Below, piece by piece: positions 13,266 through 19,480 of a stretch of DNA of 34,927 nucleotides (within the stretch, counting starts at the first letter, position 1; each line of letters opens with the position of its first letter). The translations under genes were made by a program, and so were the position numbers. The notes beneath the pieces were generated by a model. The model ran no database searches, had not been told where the DNA came from, and worked only from the letters and a program-made list of their open reading frames with translations. The DNA lies in assembly GCA_025928375.1 (NCBI GenBank), contig JAICJP010000006.1, positions 1-34,927 on the forward strand. Direction: 5' to 3'. Source of the stretch: Candidatus Sulfotelmatobacter sp. (GTDB lineage Bacteria > Acidobacteriota > Terriglobia > Terriglobales > Acidobacteriaceae).

Positions 13266-14090
13266 TCACCCTTGTAGGAACGTGTCAGCCAGCACCGTAT
13301 CCCAGTCCGCCGGAGGTACAACGTTCATCAGGTCGGGCATGAGGACGCCACCGTCCGCCAGAGCCGGCGCGGTATTGGGCGCGTGCAGTTGCAGTTGGAG
13401 TCGCTCCAGTTCGCGTGACATCCAGCCGTGTACTTCCGGGCCGCACAACAGATGGCGCAGCGTCGCAGGCTCGCGGAGTTCGAGGCGCGGGCGAATCTTT
13501 AGATACCAACCTTCTTTCGGGCCGCCAATGCCAACTACCGTGCCCTCAAGTGGAGCTCGAACCTCAATTTCGTGGCCGTTCTTCTTCATACGCCAGGCAG
13601 TCTGGTTCACTTCCAATCCCTGGCCGACCTCTGGAAGGCTCACCAAGTCGGGAGTTCCCACCAGACGAGCGGCGAGTTCATCGATGCCGACACTGACGGT
13701 TCCGTCTTCCTCCGGTTTCACCCATGTGTGCCCGCGATGGTAGTAGCGGTCGTCCGCGTAGTCGAGGCCCAAGGGGCCAACATTACCGGTGGCAGGCAAT
13801 ACCGCGAATTGGGAATATTTCTCGCAATGGCGGCAATCAAAAGCATTGTCGCAGGTGCGCGAGAGCACTCGTCCGGCGAGTTCGTGCCGGCAACGGCGGT
13901 CGGAGACGGGCAGTTCCGCGAACTGCGAACGCCACCACAGATCGATCGCCCGATGAGAGTGAAAGTCGCGGCTCGTCCGCCAAGCTGCAGACGCCACCGT
14001 GACTAGAATGGTGAGCACCACGGCGAAAAATAGCGACAGGAACAGAACGTGGCCGAGTGTCCAGTGAAAGCCATCAATTCCCGGAAACAT
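13266..14090 (-). CDS. Membrane-anchored GcvH-like protein with Cys4 module and no lipoyl lysine
   Basis: A 274-residue protein: one membrane helix (about 12-36), a Cys4 module (C67, C80, C86, C89, ending FDCRHC), then a domain clearly related to glycine cleavage H protein (YYHRGHTWVKPEEDGTVSVGIDEL ... SLPEVGQGLEV ... EVRAPLEGTVVGI). Aligned without gaps from PEVG to AP, the lipoylated lysine of GcvH is replaced by Gly in KKNGHEIEVRAP; two Lys lie two and three positions before it. The carrier function is therefore probably lost. It is the last gene of the redox-complex operon and its start overlaps the NrfD gene end by 17 nt, so it is likely a subunit or assembly factor of that complex rather than part of glycine cleavage; no gcvT or gcvP is nearby. 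Confidence 0.85.
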   Translation of the reverse strand: MFPGIDGFHWTLGHVLFLSLFFAVVLTILVTVASAAWRTSRDFHSHRAIDLWWRSQFAELPVSDRRCRHELAGRVLSRTCDNAFDCRHCEKYSQFAVLPATGNVGPLGLDYADDRYYHRGHTWVKPEEDGTVSVGIDELAARLVGTPDLVSLPEVGQGLEVNQTAWRMKKNGHEIEVRAPLEGTVVGIGGPKEGWYLKIRPRLELREPATLRHLLCGPEVHGWMSRELERLQLQLHAPNTAPALADGGVLMPDLMNVVPPADWDTVLADTFLQG

Positions 14091-15336
14091 GCGAGTCCCG
14101 TCCTTTCGGCGCAGCGAACAGCGGCAGATACCTGTATGAAAGCGAATACACGATCACGCCGTACGCGATCACGCCGGCGAAGCTCGCTACCTCCTGCCAA
14201 CTGGGTGTGTATTGCAGGAAATCATCAAAGGGCAGCGTAGGCAGGGCGAGCGTCTGCACAGTCAGCACGAAACGGTTCAGTAGCACGCCAGCGCAAGCCA
14301 TCGCGGCAGCTGTCAGGAGCCACGGTTTGCTGGCTGCGGTTTTGCGGAAAGTTAAAAGGAATGCCGGAAGCAACCCGAGCAGAATGATCTCGGCGAAGAG
14401 GATCGGCGTTCCGAATCCTTTATGCTGGTAGTACTGCCACGGAGCAAAACCTGCGGCCGGTGACGTGTAGTTCAGCCAGACCAGGGTGTCGATGCATTTA
14501 ACGGCGACGTAAATCGCGAGCAGCACTCCCGAAATGAATGCCAGTCGGCGGTAGAGTTCCTGCGGAACCAGCTTGCGGCCAGTCACCTTTTCGACCGTTG
14601 CGATAATCAGCACCAGAAAGCTCGGTCCGGAGGCGATCGCCGATAGGATGAAGAGGAAGAATGTGGAAGGCCAGATCAGAAATCCATCGCGAAACGCGAA
14701 AGGCCGTCCCCGTAGCACACCGTAAAGCCCGCCTAAAGATCCCTGATGAAAGAACGACAACAGTGTTCCCACAGCCGCGAGCACGGGAACCAGTTTGTGC
14801 AATTGATGTTCGAAAACCAGGAACGACGGCAACCTCCGCAGTTGCCGGTTGCGTAGCAGGATCGGAATGTACTCCAGGCTGAGCACCAGCAGGTAACACG
14901 AAATGCAGAAAGTGACTTCGGTCAGCATGGAATGCGTGTTGGGATGCCAGAAGGTGAACCATGCCCGTAGCGGCTGCCCGACATCGATCATCAGAATCGC
15001 AACCGCTCCGCTATAGCAAATGAATCCAACCACCACGGCGGTGTTGAGGATCGGTTTCAGTTCGACGCGCTTCAGGATGTAGACCAGGAATCCGGTGAAG
15101 AATGCGCCGGCGCCCAGTGCGATGATGCCGAGATCCAGAAAGATCCATAGGCCGAACGCAAAGCGGTTGTCCATGTTGGTCTGGTTCAGGCCGTAAAACA
15201 GACACAGCGCGGCGGCGTAAACGCCGACCGCCAGCAAGACGGCCCACGGGCTCAGCCACAGCAGAAAGCGCGACAGGGAAATGCGCTCCGCCCCGCGCGT
15301 GATCCATCGGGCATCGGTGAGGACCGTGCTAGCCAC
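14074..15336 (-). CDS. NrfD/PsrC/QrcD-type quinone-interacting membrane subunit
   Basis: A 420-residue membrane protein with about nine or ten helices, in the size range of NrfD, PsrC, ActC and QrcD. It anchors the peripheral ferredoxin and MopB subunits and holds the quinone site. Features include FGLWIFLDLGIIALGAGAFFTGF in the second helix region and RAWFTFWHPNTHSMLTEVTFCIS in the fourth, both typical of the family. It starts with GTG at 15336, with GGAGGTG just upstream, and overlaps the end of the ferredoxin gene by 8 nt. The conserved acidic and histidine residues used in proton transfer by relatives are not assigned here. Expected location: inner membrane. Confidence 0.93.
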   Translation of the reverse strand: MASTVLTDARWITRGAERISLSRFLLWLSPWAVLLAVGVYAAALCLFYGLNQTNMDNRFAFGLWIFLDLGIIALGAGAFFTGFLVYILKRVELKPILNTAVVVGFICYSGAVAILMIDVGQPLRAWFTFWHPNTHSMLTEVTFCISCYLLVLSLEYIPILLRNRQLRRLPSFLVFEHQLHKLVPVLAAVGTLLSFFHQGSLGGLYGVLRGRPFAFRDGFLIWPSTFFLFILSAIASGPSFLVLIIATVEKVTGRKLVPQELYRRLAFISGVLLAIYVAVKCIDTLVWLNYTSPAAGFAPWQYYQHKGFGTPILFAEIILLGLLPAFLLTFRKTAASKPWLLTAAAMACAGVLLNRFVLTVQTLALPTLPFDDFLQYTPSWQEVASFAGVIAYGVIVYSLSYRYLPLFAAPKGRDSHVSGN

Positions 15337-16078
15337 GTTGCACCTCCGAAGCTTGCGGCGAATTTGGTTCTGCCAGGGCTCTCACCCACGCCTCGTTCGA
15401 TTTGTAATAGAGCTTGGGCTCAGTCCCGAGCCGAGCCAGCAGCCGGAACGCCTGCGGCGAGTGCGCTTCCTTAGAAACTGGATCATTCGCATCTCCCAAG
15501 TCTCCAAAGTGAATCGCATTCGTAGAGCAAGCTTCGACGCAGGCCGGAACGTAATCGGCGGGATCGATTTCGCGCTTTCCTGCGACAGCTGCTTTTTCTT
15601 TGGCCGAATGCAGCCGCGCATGGCAGAGATTGCATTTCTCGACCACCCCGCGCATGCGCACAGCCACTCCCGGGTTGAGGCTCTTCTCCATTCCCGGAGG
15701 CCACGCCGGATCCCACCAGTTGAAATAACGCGCGTGATAAGGACACGCTGTCATGCAGTAACGGCAACCCAGGCAACGTTGCGCCATCTGCATGACGATT
15801 CCGGTTGCCTCGTCCACTTCCACCGCCTGTTGTGGGCAAACCTTCACGCAAGGTGTGTCGTGCTCGCAATGCATGCACATGATCGGGATAAATGCTTCGC
15901 GCCGGGTCTCGCCATTGTTTCCATTCGAGACTTTTCGGACGAGAAGGGGAGTGAGGCCGGTGCGAGCGGTGGCTTGCGGAAGCGCGGGAACATTATTTTC
16001 GGCAGCACAGGCCATCATGCACGCGCCGCAGCCGGTGCAGCGGTCGACATCGATGACCATCCCGTAACGTGCGCTCAT
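15329..16078 (-). CDS. Four-cluster [4Fe-4S] ferredoxin subunit (QrcC/NrfC/DmsB-like)
   Basis: A 249-residue electron-transfer subunit. Cys groups: CTGCGACMMAC (about 14-24), CMHCEHDTPCVKVCP, CLGCRYCMTACPY, and CNLCHAR combined with the later CVEAC; together these give the sixteen ligands of four [4Fe-4S] clusters, as in DmsB, PsrB and QrcC. It links the MopB-fold subunit to the NrfD subunit. No signal peptide is present; it would be carried across the membrane with the Tat-signal-bearing MopB partner, as in related complexes. Start: ATG at 16078 overlapping the MopB stop (ATGA), with AGGAGGAATGC upstream. The C-terminal tail beyond residue 210 is unassigned. Confidence 0.94.
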   Translation of the reverse strand: MSARYGMVIDVDRCTGCGACMMACAAENNVPALPQATARTGLTPLLVRKVSNGNNGETRREAFIPIMCMHCEHDTPCVKVCPQQAVEVDEATGIVMQMAQRCLGCRYCMTACPYHARYFNWWDPAWPPGMEKSLNPGVAVRMRGVVEKCNLCHARLHSAKEKAAVAGKREIDPADYVPACVEACSTNAIHFGDLGDANDPVSKEAHSPQAFRLLARLGTEPKLYYKSNEAWVRALAEPNSPQASEVQRG

Positions 16079-17742
16079 GCATTCCTCCTAGGCGGTTCCC
16101 GCAATCCGGATTCCTGGTAGAGCTTGGAGGCCAGTGGAGGCATTACCACGGGCTTCCACTGTGTTGCCCAAGTTTCAGCGGATACGGGGCGGGTCTGTGC
16201 CGGCCATTCCTTCAGATGGCATGCGAAAGCTTTGCTCAGCGATGCTTCGCCGGCCCAGACCGCACCCTTCCACAATTGCTCTTTGAAACTCTGAACCGAA
16301 CTGACTTTGTCGATCGCGGCAATTTGCTGCCCATAGAGGTTGCCTTCCCGCCGCCGGAACAGATCCTCGCAACGGCTGTCAATGATCTTTGCCGTCGTGG
16401 GCAGGCTGGCATCGAGGCTGCACAGGAATTGCGCGGCACTCTGCACCTCAATTGTCGCTTTCACTAGAGCCGGCGCGACCCCGTAAGTTTGTGCCGAGCA
16501 GCCTGGGGCTGTCGGGAGATCCGTCAGATCTTCCAAAAACCCGGGGGCGGGGAGCAGCCAGTCTGCTTTCGTAGCACCGCCGTCCCATGCCGCGAAGCGG
16601 AAGATCTCGGCCTCTACCTGTGGAACGAACTCCCAAGGCACGCTGGCGTCGATCAGTACCGCGCGCGCGTTTCCGATGGCGCTTTCAGCTGCGACATAGG
16701 GCTTCACTCCCTCAGAATGTGGCACGATCCCACCGCGGTTGCCGAGCGATCCCAACAGCACATTCAGGGCGGCAATTGCGGGATCGTCATCGCGCGCAAC
16801 GACGAGCGCTGGTGTTTTCGCGACCACCAGGCGTGCGAGTTCGCGAATGCGCTCGACGCTCAAGCCCGCCTGGGCCGACGATTCCGCCAGCGTCATGGAC
16901 GGGACCGGACTGTGCGCCGGAACCAGGTTCTGTTCAAGCAGCGCACCAGCCAATCCCGAAGCCAAAGCCGATTCGGAGCCTTCACGAATTTCTATCCATT
17001 GCCATGCGCGCGCGGCAGTTCGCGACAGGGAGGAATCGATCTGAATCAGCCGAAGTTGCGGATCGCTCAACCCCGCGCCGCTTTCGGCCCAGAGTCGAGT
17101 CAATCGCCCGGGAGTTCCCCAGCCATCCAGCAGCGGTGCGCCGAAACTGACGATCGTTCGAGCGTTCTCGAAATCGTATCCCAGGGAAGCGGCTGGAATC
17201 CCGGTCCATTGCTCATAAGGAGTGAATGCCCGGAGTTCAGGGGTGGCAACCACGCGATAGCTCCCCCCTTGCTTGCCGGCGAAGGTCTCCAGAACGGACG
17301 ATGCAGCGCGCCCGGAATAACCGTCGATCACTACCACCGGTCCTTCCTTGCTGGCTTTTGCAAACGCCGACTGCGCCTCCGCCCAAGTCGATAGGCTGGA
17401 GCCATGGCGAACGTTCCGAAGCCGCTGCGGATGCCAATTCAATTGATGTGCGGCAAATGCCAACGGGCACAACGCGCCTCGGCTAATCGGATGTGTGCTC
17501 GATCCCGCGACGCCGACGGCCCATCCGTTCGCCATACGAACTCGAAGGCCGCACGCCTTTGGACACAAAGTACAGAAGGATTGCTTTACCTCTACAGGAC
17601 CGCGCGTCGGCTGCGGAATCCACGGCCAGTTCTGGCTCCATATCGAAACATCATCCAATACTTTCCAGGGAACCGGGGTTGCGAGCAGGCCTGCCGCGGC
17701 TCCCGCGCCCCATACCAGCAGATCTCGCCGTGTAACCTTCAT
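16075..17742 (-). CDS. MopB-fold (molybdopterin oxidoreductase-like) subunit, short, QrcB-like
   Basis: A 555-residue protein. ATG at 17742 is preferred over a start 15 codons earlier because GAGGGG lies just upstream. Order: Tat signal (TRRDLLVWGAGAAAGLLA); N-terminal [4Fe-4S] site C57-x2-C60-x3-C64-x27-C92; MopB domains with FGAPLLDGWGTPGR. It is short for a catalytic molybdoenzyme (commonly 700-1000 residues), and I cannot find a Cys/SeCys at the usual metal-ligand region around YEQWTGIPAASLGYDFENA. In the Qrc complex and alternative complex III the MopB subunit does not carry molybdenum and serves as a structural or electron-transfer protein; the cytochrome-MopB-ferredoxin-NrfD order here matches Qrc. 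Active molybdoenzyme remains possible but less likely. Confidence 0.87.
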   Translation of the reverse strand: MKVTRRDLLVWGAGAAAGLLATPVPWKVLDDVSIWSQNWPWIPQPTRGPVEVKQSFCTLCPKACGLRVRMANGWAVGVAGSSTHPISRGALCPLAFAAHQLNWHPQRLRNVRHGSSLSTWAEAQSAFAKASKEGPVVVIDGYSGRAASSVLETFAGKQGGSYRVVATPELRAFTPYEQWTGIPAASLGYDFENARTIVSFGAPLLDGWGTPGRLTRLWAESGAGLSDPQLRLIQIDSSLSRTAARAWQWIEIREGSESALASGLAGALLEQNLVPAHSPVPSMTLAESSAQAGLSVERIRELARLVVAKTPALVVARDDDPAIAALNVLLGSLGNRGGIVPHSEGVKPYVAAESAIGNARAVLIDASVPWEFVPQVEAEIFRFAAWDGGATKADWLLPAPGFLEDLTDLPTAPGCSAQTYGVAPALVKATIEVQSAAQFLCSLDASLPTTAKIIDSRCEDLFRRREGNLYGQQIAAIDKVSSVQSFKEQLWKGAVWAGEASLSKAFACHLKEWPAQTRPVSAETWATQWKPVVMPPLASKLYQESGLREPPRRNA

Positions 17743-17752
17743 TGCTTTCCCC

Positions 17753-18343
17753 TCATTGATGGCATCCCAGGCAACCGACTTCCACATTGCGCTGCTTGTG
17801 ACACTCCTCGCAGTCGCTCATCTTCATGCCTTCATGTGGAGCGCGCCGCAAGCGCGACATCGAATGTCCCCAGATGTCGCGGCTGTACCCGCTGATGCGA
17901 TTCACTTCGTAGACGCGGACGCGATCCGACTCGCCGTAGGTGGAATGACATTCCGTGCAGGAAAGATTGGCGCGTTTCACGTGGATGGCGTGCGAGAACC
18001 ACACATTCGCAGGCTGCCGTGCATACGCGAGCCAGGGCGTGTCATGCCCGGGCTTGATATAGCTGTCTACCAGGATGGCTTCAGCCTTGCTCTCGCCGAC
18101 GCGCTCCGAATGGCATCCCGCGCATTTCTCCACGGCCGGAAGCCCGGCAAAGGTCCCGTCCTCGCGGATGGTGTGGCACTCGGCGCAATCGGCCACCCCG
18201 GATTTTTCCGCGTGAGTCTTATGTAGAAAGTCGAGCGGCTGATGCTTCTGCGAATAGAGCACGCGCGGAAAAACGACCCATCCCAGCAACAGTGCTACCG
18301 CCAGACCAAAAGCAAAAACGAAGCTGTTGCGCCATTTGCTCAC
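17753..18343 (-). CDS. Membrane-anchored pentaheme cytochrome c (QrcA/ActA-like)
   Basis: A 196-residue protein starting with GTG at 18343, which overlaps the stop of the upstream GcvH-like gene (GTGA, 18340-18343); a longer frame upstream only reads through that gene antiparallel to codon logic. One N-terminal membrane helix (about 7-27) anchors a periplasmic domain with five CXXCH sites: CAECH (53-57), CAGCH (74-78), CTECH (129-133), CEECH (178-182) and CLGCH (191-195), the protein ending one residue after the last. Additional His residues (H41, H44, H118, H121) are candidates for distal ligands. ActA of alternative complex III is also pentaheme and QrcA is hexaheme. It would pass electrons between the complex and soluble periplasmic cytochromes. 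Confidence 0.92.
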   Translation of the reverse strand: MSKWRNSFVFAFGLAVALLLGWVVFPRVLYSQKHQPLDFLHKTHAEKSGVADCAECHTIREDGTFAGLPAVEKCAGCHSERVGESKAEAILVDSYIKPGHDTPWLAYARQPANVWFSHAIHVKRANLSCTECHSTYGESDRVRVYEVNRISGYSRDIWGHSMSRLRRAPHEGMKMSDCEECHKQRNVEVGCLGCHQ

Positions 18344-19185
18344 CGCTCGACACTCCAATCCGTCCGGGAAAAGAAATGCTGGAACAGGCACACCAGGTCT
18401 TGCCGCGACAGTAGTCGTGCAACTCCCCGGACCGGCGTACCCCCGTCGCAACCGGGAGCGTGTGCCTCGTGAATTTCGCGGGCCAGGCGTTCCCGTTCCT
18501 GCGCTTGCCAGGCGGCCGCTTGCGGACCGGAAATGAGGCCCGCGCGCGTACGTCCGGGAACTTCCCAACCTTCAAACAGCCAGCCTGCGCCATAAGGGTC
18601 CGCGGTTAAACGGGCGGGATCACTCCGCACCCGGCTGTTGATCTTCTGAATCATCACTGGATTGGGAAAGCTGATCGGCCACTCCACTCCATGGACCGTG
18701 AGCGCCAGGGCAGGGCAGTGCGTGCCGCGTGACGAGACGAATGTAACTCCGTCCACCGTGCTCGCGATGTCGGCGACGAATCCGTCTACGCCGATGTGAC
18801 ACAGACCGGATGCTTCCGCATCCAGCCAGAGATGATTTTGGCTGTAAAGCAACGTGTTTGGCGGCGTAGTGGAGTGCGGTTGTGCCAGTTGCAAGTACGA
18901 ATCGCAGTAACGATAAGTGTTGCTGGCGCAGTTCGATAATTCCGAATCGCTGAATGGCACCAATTTCGGAATCGGAGAGACGCCGCAGTACTGCACCCGA
19001 ATGTCTTCCAAATGAGGACAGCGATCGCGCGGCGTTTTGCTCTTGGCCGCCAGTTCGCACTCCACATATCGGGGTGAGGCACAGCGCCCGCCCTCGCTAG
19101 CTCCCGGCCCGTCGAGAATCAGTTTGCGCACCGGGGCTGCATGGCAATATCGCGCTCGGCCTTCTCGCAAAAACGGGCAGGGCAT
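18340..19185 (-). CDS. GcvH-like protein with duplicated Cys4 module and no lipoyl lysine
   Basis: A 281-residue protein. ATG at 19185 is chosen because AGGAG lies upstream, overlapping the preceding stop codon; the gap to that gene is 4 bp. The N-terminal 95 residues hold two copies of a module of pattern C-P-x-L...Y-C...P-x-x-K-L...C-A-S-x-x-Y-x-x-C (C3, C14, C35, C43; C56, C67, C86, C94). The middle (from NTLLYSQNHLWLD, ending PYGAGWLFEGWEV) matches GcvH, but the lipoyl lysine position is Gly in VHGVEWPISFP. The C-terminal 90 residues are unassigned. No membrane helix or signal peptide is seen, so it may stay cytoplasmic and assist maturation, or bind metal through its Cys modules. Function unknown. 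Confidence 0.8.
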   Translation of the reverse strand: MPCPFLREGRARYCHAAPVRKLILDGPGASEGGRCASPRYVECELAAKSKTPRDRCPHLEDIRVQYCGVSPIPKLVPFSDSELSNCASNTYRYCDSYLQLAQPHSTTPPNTLLYSQNHLWLDAEASGLCHIGVDGFVADIASTVDGVTFVSSRGTHCPALALTVHGVEWPISFPNPVMIQKINSRVRSDPARLTADPYGAGWLFEGWEVPGRTRAGLISGPQAAAWQAQERERLAREIHEAHAPGCDGGTPVRGVARLLSRQDLVCLFQHFFSRTDWSVER

Positions 19186-19189
19186 GGCA

Positions 19190-19480
19190 TTACTCCTGCG
19201 GCTTCTTCGAAGTCTTGTCTTTCGACGCTTCGATGCGCTCGCCGCCATCCGCCATCGTCAAGCCAAACTCGGGGACGGAGAAGCTATGCGAACCTCCCTG
19301 CAAAAGCGCTTTCAGGTCGGCATCGATGTTGTTGAGGTTGACCGTTGGTGCTTTTCCAACCTTGCGAACCAGCAAGTCCCAGCCCACCGCGAAGAACACA
19401 ACCAGCAACGCGATTAAGGTCACAAGTCCCAGCCCGAAATTTGTGATGTTGAGCCACATAGTCCAATCTTCTCCAGCCAT
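19190..19480 (-). CDS. Small single-helix membrane protein, first gene of redox-complex operon
   Basis: A 96-residue protein with one strong hydrophobic helix (FGLGLVTLIALLVVFFAVGWDLLV) and a polar C-terminal tail of about 55 residues. ATG at 19480 is preferred over an upstream start because GAGGAGG lies nine bases before it. I do not recognise a named family. Leading the operon and directly preceding the GcvH-like gene, it may be a small accessory subunit of the NrfD complex, analogous in size to small subunits of other respiratory complexes, or an anchor for the GcvH-like protein. The tail motif NNIDADLKALLQGG could be a binding element. Function is inferred from position only. Confidence 0.72.
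   Translation of the reverse strand: MAGEDWTMWLNITNFGLGLVTLIALLVVFFAVGWDLLVRKVGKAPTVNLNNIDADLKALLQGGSHSFSVPEFGLTMADGGERIEASKDKTSKKPQE

Follow-up and report, generated by a model that had tools for sequence, protein, structure and literature searches.

The stretch of DNA analysed here (the window, 34,927 nucleotides in its full length) comes from the acidobacterium Candidatus Sulfotelmatobacter sp. (assembly GCA_025928375.1, contig JAICJP010000006.1), and its positions 13266-19480 hold an operon of seven genes on the minus strand. The four central genes encode relatives of the Qrc subunits QrcA to QrcD. They are preceded by genes for a small protein with a transmembrane (TM) stretch and for a GcvH-like protein, and followed by a gene for a second GcvH-like protein. 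From the first gene to the last, the features are listed below with the open reading frames (ORFs), protein lengths in amino acids (aa) and scores against the NCBIfam models.

19190..19480, minus strand: small single-TM protein, 96 aa, with the motif GLTMADGGE; assigned from the ORF, with a TM stretch whose flanking charges predict a cytoplasmic tail.
18340..19185, minus strand: GcvH-like 1, 281 aa; two tandem four-Cys modules, predicted non-lipoyl GcvH fold, C-terminal DGG.
17753..18343, minus strand: QrcA-like cytochrome c; five CxxCH motifs and an N-terminal hydrophobic stretch; NF041781 at 213 bits against a cut-off of 180.
16075..about 17742 (ORF from 17787), minus strand: QrcB-like MopB protein with a start like that of twin-arginine translocation (Tat) signals; NF041783 at 228 bits against a cut-off of 440.
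15329..16078, minus strand: QrcC-like iron-sulfur (Fe-S) subunit with Fer4 repeats; NF041782 at 324 bits against a cut-off of 400.
14074..15336, minus strand: QrcD-like NrfD/PsrC membrane subunit; NF041784 at 565 bits against a cut-off of 570.
13266..14090, minus strand: GcvH-like 2; N-terminal TM helix, C-x12-C-x5-C-x2-C, predicted non-lipoyl GcvH fold, C-terminal LADGG.

The genes are closely packed: at each junction they either overlap, by 4-17 bp, or are separated by 4-10 bp. QrcB and QrcC overlap by 4 bp, QrcC and QrcD by 8 bp, and QrcD and GcvH-like 2 by 17 bp; the stop codon of GcvH-like 1, whose alignments begin one codon later than the ORF, at 19182, overlaps the likely GTG start of QrcA at 18343 (GTGA), and the other two junctions are gaps of 4 and about 10 bp. 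The G+C content of the operon (0.595) is near that of the window (0.579). A scan for promoters and terminators found 0 and 8, respectively, compared with 1.9 and 6.8 in shuffled sequences. The original prediction, which was made without database searches, had given the same seven genes in this order, on one strand and with overlaps or short gaps, and the ORFs bear this out. Its pentaheme cytochrome, MopB protein, ferredoxin and NrfD protein were likewise recovered, by the five CxxCH motifs and by Pfam matches to the MopB Fe4S4 domain (Molybdop_Fe4S4, 33.7 bits with a cut-off of 22.7), Fer4 repeats and NrfD.

A scan of GTDB genomes yielded 463 relatives of QrcD, from which the best 80 loci by similarity to the window's clade were kept. 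These loci are labelled as Acidobacteriota, Bacteroidota/Ignavibacteria, KSB1, Eisenbacteria and Kryptoniota, with those from Candidatus Sulfotelmatobacter nearest. Two phyla were also sampled by genome, i.e., Acidobacteriota (297 genomes for the QrcD search and 247 for GcvH-like 2) and the phylum to which G336 belongs (296 genomes, here called the Bacteroidota sample), G336 being the genome with the ignavibacterial locus L100. Matches were called strong above 560 bits for QrcD and above 300 bits for GcvH-like 2.

In NCBIfam, the four central genes are best matched by the models of QrcA, QrcB, QrcC and QrcD, and they are contiguous in the window in the same A-B-C-D order as in Desulfobacterota, with three additional genes here. 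QrcA scores above its cut-off and QrcD is within 6 bits below its own, a cut-off of 570 that is passed by 7 of the 11 strong relatives in the Bacteroidota sample. Residues D68, Y108, D118, S136, Y148 and R355 of QrcD do not vary in any of the 81 sequences (the window and 80 relatives) and could correspond to D70, Y110, D120, S138, Y150 and R358 of N. vulgaris, as matched by numbering alone (with an offset of two, then three). It was reported, in the excerpted text of PMC13059093, that mutations of D70, Y110, S138 and Y150 abolish QrcD function in N. vulgaris and that those of D120, R358 and E413 do not. On the other hand, QrcA has five CxxCH motifs in the window and in all 61 relatives, whereas six hemes are given for Desulfobacterota in a review table (PMC8076601, in excerpt). 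Similarly, C-x2-C-x3-C-x(20-35)-C is present in 64 of 72 QrcB sequences, a set in which some are truncated at the end of a contig, whereas QrcB of the known Qrc was described without redox cofactors in the available part of PMC13059093. Because of the five CxxCH motifs and the score shortfalls of QrcB, QrcC and QrcD, the core is regarded as a Qrc-type variant and not as canonical QrcABCD. The Qrc scores, together with the invariant QrcD positions, suggest that it is most likely an electrogenic cytochrome c:menaquinone reductase.

In alternative complex III (ACIII), ActB is a fusion of MopB and Fe-S parts, and a second NrfD protein (ActF) and ActD/E are present. The operon in the window has separate MopB and Fe-S genes and one NrfD gene. 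The original prediction had described it as like Qrc or ACIII; the first comparison is upheld by the NCBIfam models, and the second is dropped on account of these differences. As judged from subunit models and gene content, the core is of the Qrc type and not ACIII, and an ordinary molybdoenzyme operon was ruled out on the same grounds; a comparison of the MopB protein with PDB sequences matched other molybdoenzymes only. It is hardly conceivable that ACIII, or another known molybdoenzyme operon, stands here together with two bystander gcvH genes. The set of cytochrome, MopB, ferredoxin and NrfD is common to them in outline, but the best models are those of QrcA-D, the two GcvH-like proteins are not GcvH (see below), and GcvH-like 2 follows QrcD in 79 of the 80 loci under a looser assignment.

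All seven genes scored above the strict limits in 53 of the 80 loci, and gene order and strand were identical in all 53 of these complete loci, which are related and hence not independent. The remaining 27 loci are affected by contig ends or split matches, with the exception of L091. Under the looser assignment, GcvH-like 1 was present in 60 and the small TM protein in 57 of the 80 loci. The contig begins inside the operon or <300 bp before the first operon frame seen in 19 of the 20 loci without GcvH-like 1, among them L092 with a split QrcB; the twentieth is L091. In L076, the single locus in which GcvH-like 2 was not seen after QrcD, only 145 bp remain beyond the QrcD frame. A tandem pair of GcvH-like 2 genes follows QrcD in L119 (2371-3990). 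The original prediction had named the absence of GcvH-like genes from homologous clusters as evidence that would speak against it, and among the loci examined, all outside Desulfobacterota, their place in the cluster is conserved. It had counted two additional proteins, and this number has to be raised to three because the small TM protein is linked in the same way and also carries DGG.

The co-occurrence of QrcD and GcvH-like 2 was also seen at the level of genomes. Strong QrcD matches were found in 5 of the 297 Acidobacteriota genomes, after which the score drops from 565 bits to 176, and a strong GcvH-like 2 was confined to these 5 among 247 genomes (next best, 152 bits). In the Bacteroidota sample, strong QrcD and strong GcvH-like 2 occur in the identical 11 of 296 genomes, and in each of these 19-142 bp separate the ends of the two matches. 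The cluster is patchy, since G084, the one listed genome of the same genus (100% complete), had neither QrcD (at E 1e-40) nor GcvH-like 2 (at E 1e-12).

The relationship of the GcvH-like proteins to GcvH lies in the fold. GcvH-like 2 matches the Pfam family GCV_H with 35.2 bits (cut-off 22.2), and GcvH-like 1, with 20.5 bits, falls just below. Single-chain structures were predicted by AlphaFold2 (AF2), with a predicted local distance difference test (pLDDT) of 91.5 for GcvH-like 2 and 90.2 for GcvH-like 1. The best Foldseek matches were the H-proteins of T. thermophilus (E 1.0e-8) and E. coli (E 8.2e-8), respectively, and PDB sequences matched by GcvH-like 2 were H-proteins only; by these models, both proteins have the GcvH fold. 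When GcvH-like 2 was aligned with the canonical GcvH of the window's own genome, the lipoyl column held K in 7 of 78 rows, with G as the commonest residue (31), and in GcvH-like 1 the column was gapped in all 59 rows. According to these alignments, the GcvH-like proteins are not lipoyl carriers. A true lipoylated GcvH, such as sulfur oxidizers have in their LbpA systems (PMC6067878, in excerpt), was ruled out because the lipoyl lysine is not conserved. Fold and weak profile matches (20-38 bits versus GcvH cut-offs of 116-117) are what they have in common with the glycine cleavage H protein, and the Cys modules, the DGG tail and, in GcvH-like 2, the membrane anchor are without counterpart in GcvH. 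The term GcvH-like in the original prediction was therefore right for the fold and misleading for the missing lipoyl lysine; the Cys modules and the DGG motif had gone unreported.

The four Cys of GcvH-like 2, C67-x12-C80-x5-C86-x2-C89, are invariant in 77 of 77 rows. GcvH-like 1 has eight in two similar modules, four of them invariant and four present in at least 90% of 58 rows, so that the two proteins together carry twelve conserved Cys in three four-Cys sites. Such four-Cys sets could equally bind structural zinc. These twelve Cys would also suit Fe-S clusters, with which the additional proteins would carry electrons between QrcD and the cytoplasm as a transmembrane conduit, and this is considered very improbable. 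Besides the alternative of zinc, QrcD was described without cofactors (PMC13059093, in excerpt), and there is therefore no known path for electrons across the membrane.

The small TM protein of the window had no match in Pfam or NCBIfam, and scattered weak Pfam matches were obtained for some of its relatives. It consists of a single TM stretch and a tail, with MADGG or LADGG in 56 of 57 sequences. DGG within the last 110 residues is shared by all three additional families (small TM protein, 56/57; GcvH-like 1, 60/60; GcvH-like 2, 76/79) and is rare or missing in the core subunits (QrcA, 0/61; QrcB, 5/72; QrcC, 2/79; QrcD, 2/80); in these counts the families were gathered by homology and their members are not independent. 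The orientation of a membrane protein is indicated by the charges flanking its TM stretch (the positive-inside rule). By this rule, the small TM protein and GcvH-like 2, with its N-terminal TM helix, are predicted to have cytoplasmic C-termini, and GcvH-like 1, which has no TM helix, is probably cytoplasmic.

Bracketing by two GcvH-like proteins, as put forward in the original prediction, holds for Qrc and is not peculiar to it, because GcvH-like proteins also flank NrfD genes of a second, HmcC/HybB-like type. They are encoded within 5 kb of 28 of 39 such genes (15 of 24 in Acidobacteriota, where rows G265 and G292, not in the GcvH-like 2 list, were left out of the count; in the Bacteroidota sample, 13 of 15) and on both sides of 9 of 39 (3 in Acidobacteriota and 6 in the Bacteroidota sample). 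Sixteen neighbourhoods were read, of which 15 were chosen for their GcvH-like proteins and the other contains the second NrfD gene of the window's own genome. In L156, genes for a GcvH-like protein, an HmcB-like Fe-S protein and an HmcC/HybB-like NrfD protein with a triheme c7 domain are followed by those for a GcvH-like protein with C-x12-C-x5-C-x2-C, a histidine kinase, a sigma-54 regulator and an archaemetzincin (families by Pfam; the Hmc and Hyb scores are below their cut-offs). Fifteen of the 16 neighbourhoods have relatives of its Fe-S and NrfD proteins, 13 of its kinase (with CxxCH in 11), 14 of its sigma-54 regulator (one weak) and 12 of its archaemetzincin. As at Qrc, the GcvH-like proteins beside these HmcBC/HybAB-type modules carry DGG (21 of 23 matches in the 16 neighbourhoods). 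However, the neighbourhoods differ from Qrc in that the QrcA and QrcB profiles had no match in any of the 16 and in the presence of the kinase, the regulator and the archaemetzincin. DGG was present in 15 of 187 other ORFs of these neighbourhoods; ten of the 15 encode small FAQDGG proteins (63-89 aa), leaving 5 of 177.

Some further observations concern this second Fe-S/NrfD module. It was seen at L156-L165, L167-L170 and L043, in most cases with the GcvH-like proteins, kinase, regulator and archaemetzincin. In L163, L164, L165 and L170, proteins of 63-89 aa with FAQDGG[KE] near the C-terminus, single-TM as judged by eye, adjoin the module, two or three per neighbourhood, and L167 encodes a stand-alone Cys module of 95 aa. 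In the genome from which the window comes, L043 (G000:C164) holds four genes of the second module, those for the Fe-S protein, NrfD, kinase and regulator, and L041 (G000:C282), on another contig, encodes a third non-lipoyl GcvH-like protein with a hydrophobic N-terminus and QDGG.

The kinase and regulator of these neighbourhoods bear on whether the additional proteins could be the arm of a redox or quinone sensor, in which Cys sites at the inner face would read the state of NrfD and signal onward. In L166 (7583-8731), a protein of 383 aa joins the Cys stretch of the GcvH-like 1 type to the Cys motif of GcvH-like 2, a GcvH domain and PDGG, beside relatives of the kinase, regulator and archaemetzincin. 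This arrangement, without NrfD, and the frequency of both signalling genes around the second module would suit a sensor. Nevertheless, the seven genes include neither a kinase nor a regulator (the flanks of the 80 Qrc loci were not searched for them), and a sensor arm appears quite improbable for the Qrc operon.

On balance, it is rather probable that the operon encodes a Qrc-type menaquinone reductase together with an accessory module of three proteins at the cytoplasmic side, which would be constitutive subunits of the complex. As homology to Qrc suggests, periplasmic electrons would enter at the pentaheme QrcA and be handed on by the QrcBC head to menaquinone, on the side of QrcD that faces the periplasm, with protons drawn from the cytoplasm, and the reaction would therefore be electrogenic. 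The small TM protein and GcvH-like 2 would each be anchored by one N-terminal helix. The additional proteins, with three four-Cys sites and three DGG copies between them, would probably come together where QrcD faces the cytoplasm, at the side of proton entry. There they might stabilise or gate QrcD, acting without lipoyl transfer. In favour of this view are the linkage, almost without exception in these loci, a divergence correlated with that of QrcD much as for QrcA-C, the membrane anchors and the shared motif.

The main rival explanation, ahead of a sensor arm, is that the three proteins are assembly or maturation factors absent from the finished complex, in which a cytoplasmic, Cys-rich pair with the GcvH fold would load or proofread QrcB and QrcC before Tat export. 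The predicted cytoplasmic location of the two anchored proteins, the Tat-like start of QrcB and the tight gene overlaps would all agree with such a role, as does the N. vulgaris complex, which functions without these proteins (PMC13059093, in excerpt). It is nonetheless rather unlikely, as two of the three are membrane-anchored; moreover, the GcvH-like proteins are unlikely to be chaperones of MopB only, because they also occur near Fe-S/NrfD genes where none of the 16 neighbourhoods matches the QrcB profile.

Several points weigh against the view that the additional proteins are constitutive subunits of a Qrc-type complex. The linkage on which it draws is equally typical of assembly factors or regulators. 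The distance correlations with QrcD, which are similar for the additional proteins (r 0.74-0.83) and for QrcA-C (r 0.76-0.85; n=53), come from loci that share descent and are not independent, and kinship alone inflates such values. Of the 463 loci, this view takes in the 80 most similar to the window's clade and not the more distant Qrc clusters. QrcB and QrcC score below the curated NCBIfam cut-offs. L091 (3581-7081) has QrcC, QrcD and GcvH-like 2 only, its QrcB frame running into unrelated upstream sequence, and the lack of the upstream half may reflect either misassembly or genuine loss. Eleven of the 39 second-type NrfD genes have no GcvH-like gene within 5 kb on the contig, and the 16 kb read around the fusion in L166 contain none for NrfD, so that GcvH-like proteins are not wholly bound to NrfD. 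Finally, purified Qrc of N. vulgaris consists of four subunits, and growth of the mutant is regained when the four genes are supplied in trans, according to the available text of PMC13059093; the additional proteins are therefore dispensable for Qrc chemistry as such.

The Desulfobacterota hosts of Qrc are described as sulfate reducers. By comparison, dsrA was found in 7 of 51 Qrc-bearing genomes (the window's own and 50 others, from 50 of the 80 loci and mostly metagenome-assembled genomes, MAGs) and not in the own genome (84% complete) or in 43 of the 50 others. Sulfate respiration was therefore set aside as the general context, and Qrc chemistry is probably not tied to it, as the distribution of this gene suggests. 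All seven genes are present in L109, a locus labelled as from the sulfate-reducing acidobacterial MAG CO124. The qrcABCD genes of this MAG were reported to be transcribed under anoxic conditions (PMC10564751), and the additional genes go unmentioned in the available part of that account. A hydrogenase was considered as an electron source for Qrc. The own genome has one strong match to a [NiFe] large subunit, at L197 (G000:C467:1921-7092), and by eye this set is Hyd-2-like, with a small subunit bearing a Tat signal, an Fe-S protein, an NrfD-like protein and the [NiFe] large subunit. It is not a clear donor, as with its Fe-S and NrfD-like neighbours it may reduce quinone itself.

Relatives of the operon were not found in viral contigs, and comparisons with PADLOC and PHROGs gave no match; the matches listed from plasmid searches were to remote NrfD/HybB genes and, otherwise, to GcvH or to sequences without annotation. 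In the literature, as far as the excerpts of PMC6303296, PMC8076601 and PMC13059093 go, Qrc is treated as a four-subunit complex of sulfate reducers of the Deltaproteobacteria/Desulfobacterota, with one acidobacterial sulfate reducer added in PMC10564751, and no Qrc subunit at the cytoplasmic face is named in these parts of the four papers. The absence of the additional proteins from Desulfobacterota rests on papers about N. vulgaris. Searches of the open-licence PMC literature found no paper combining GcvH with NrfD, GcvH with Hmc (as whole words) or archaemetzincin with NrfD, and the sole match for GcvH-like with quinone concerns, in the text available, lipoic acid in S. aureus.

The seven-gene form of Qrc is found in loci labelled as Acidobacteriota, Bacteroidota/Ignavibacteria and other lineages. 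Its three conserved additional proteins, predicted at the side of proton entry, would offer a direct handle on electron-proton coupling in NrfD proteins, and since GcvH-like proteins recur next to another NrfD family, they suggest a family of partners not yet described. More tentatively, non-lipoyl proteins with the GcvH fold and single-TM proteins, both with DGG tails, could make up a partner module that NrfD-type quinone complexes in several phyla generally have at the cytoplasmic side, in which DGG would be the common docking element. Such a module might couple or gate proton uptake or report the redox state, and its members would be constitutive subunits of Qrc outside Desulfobacterota.

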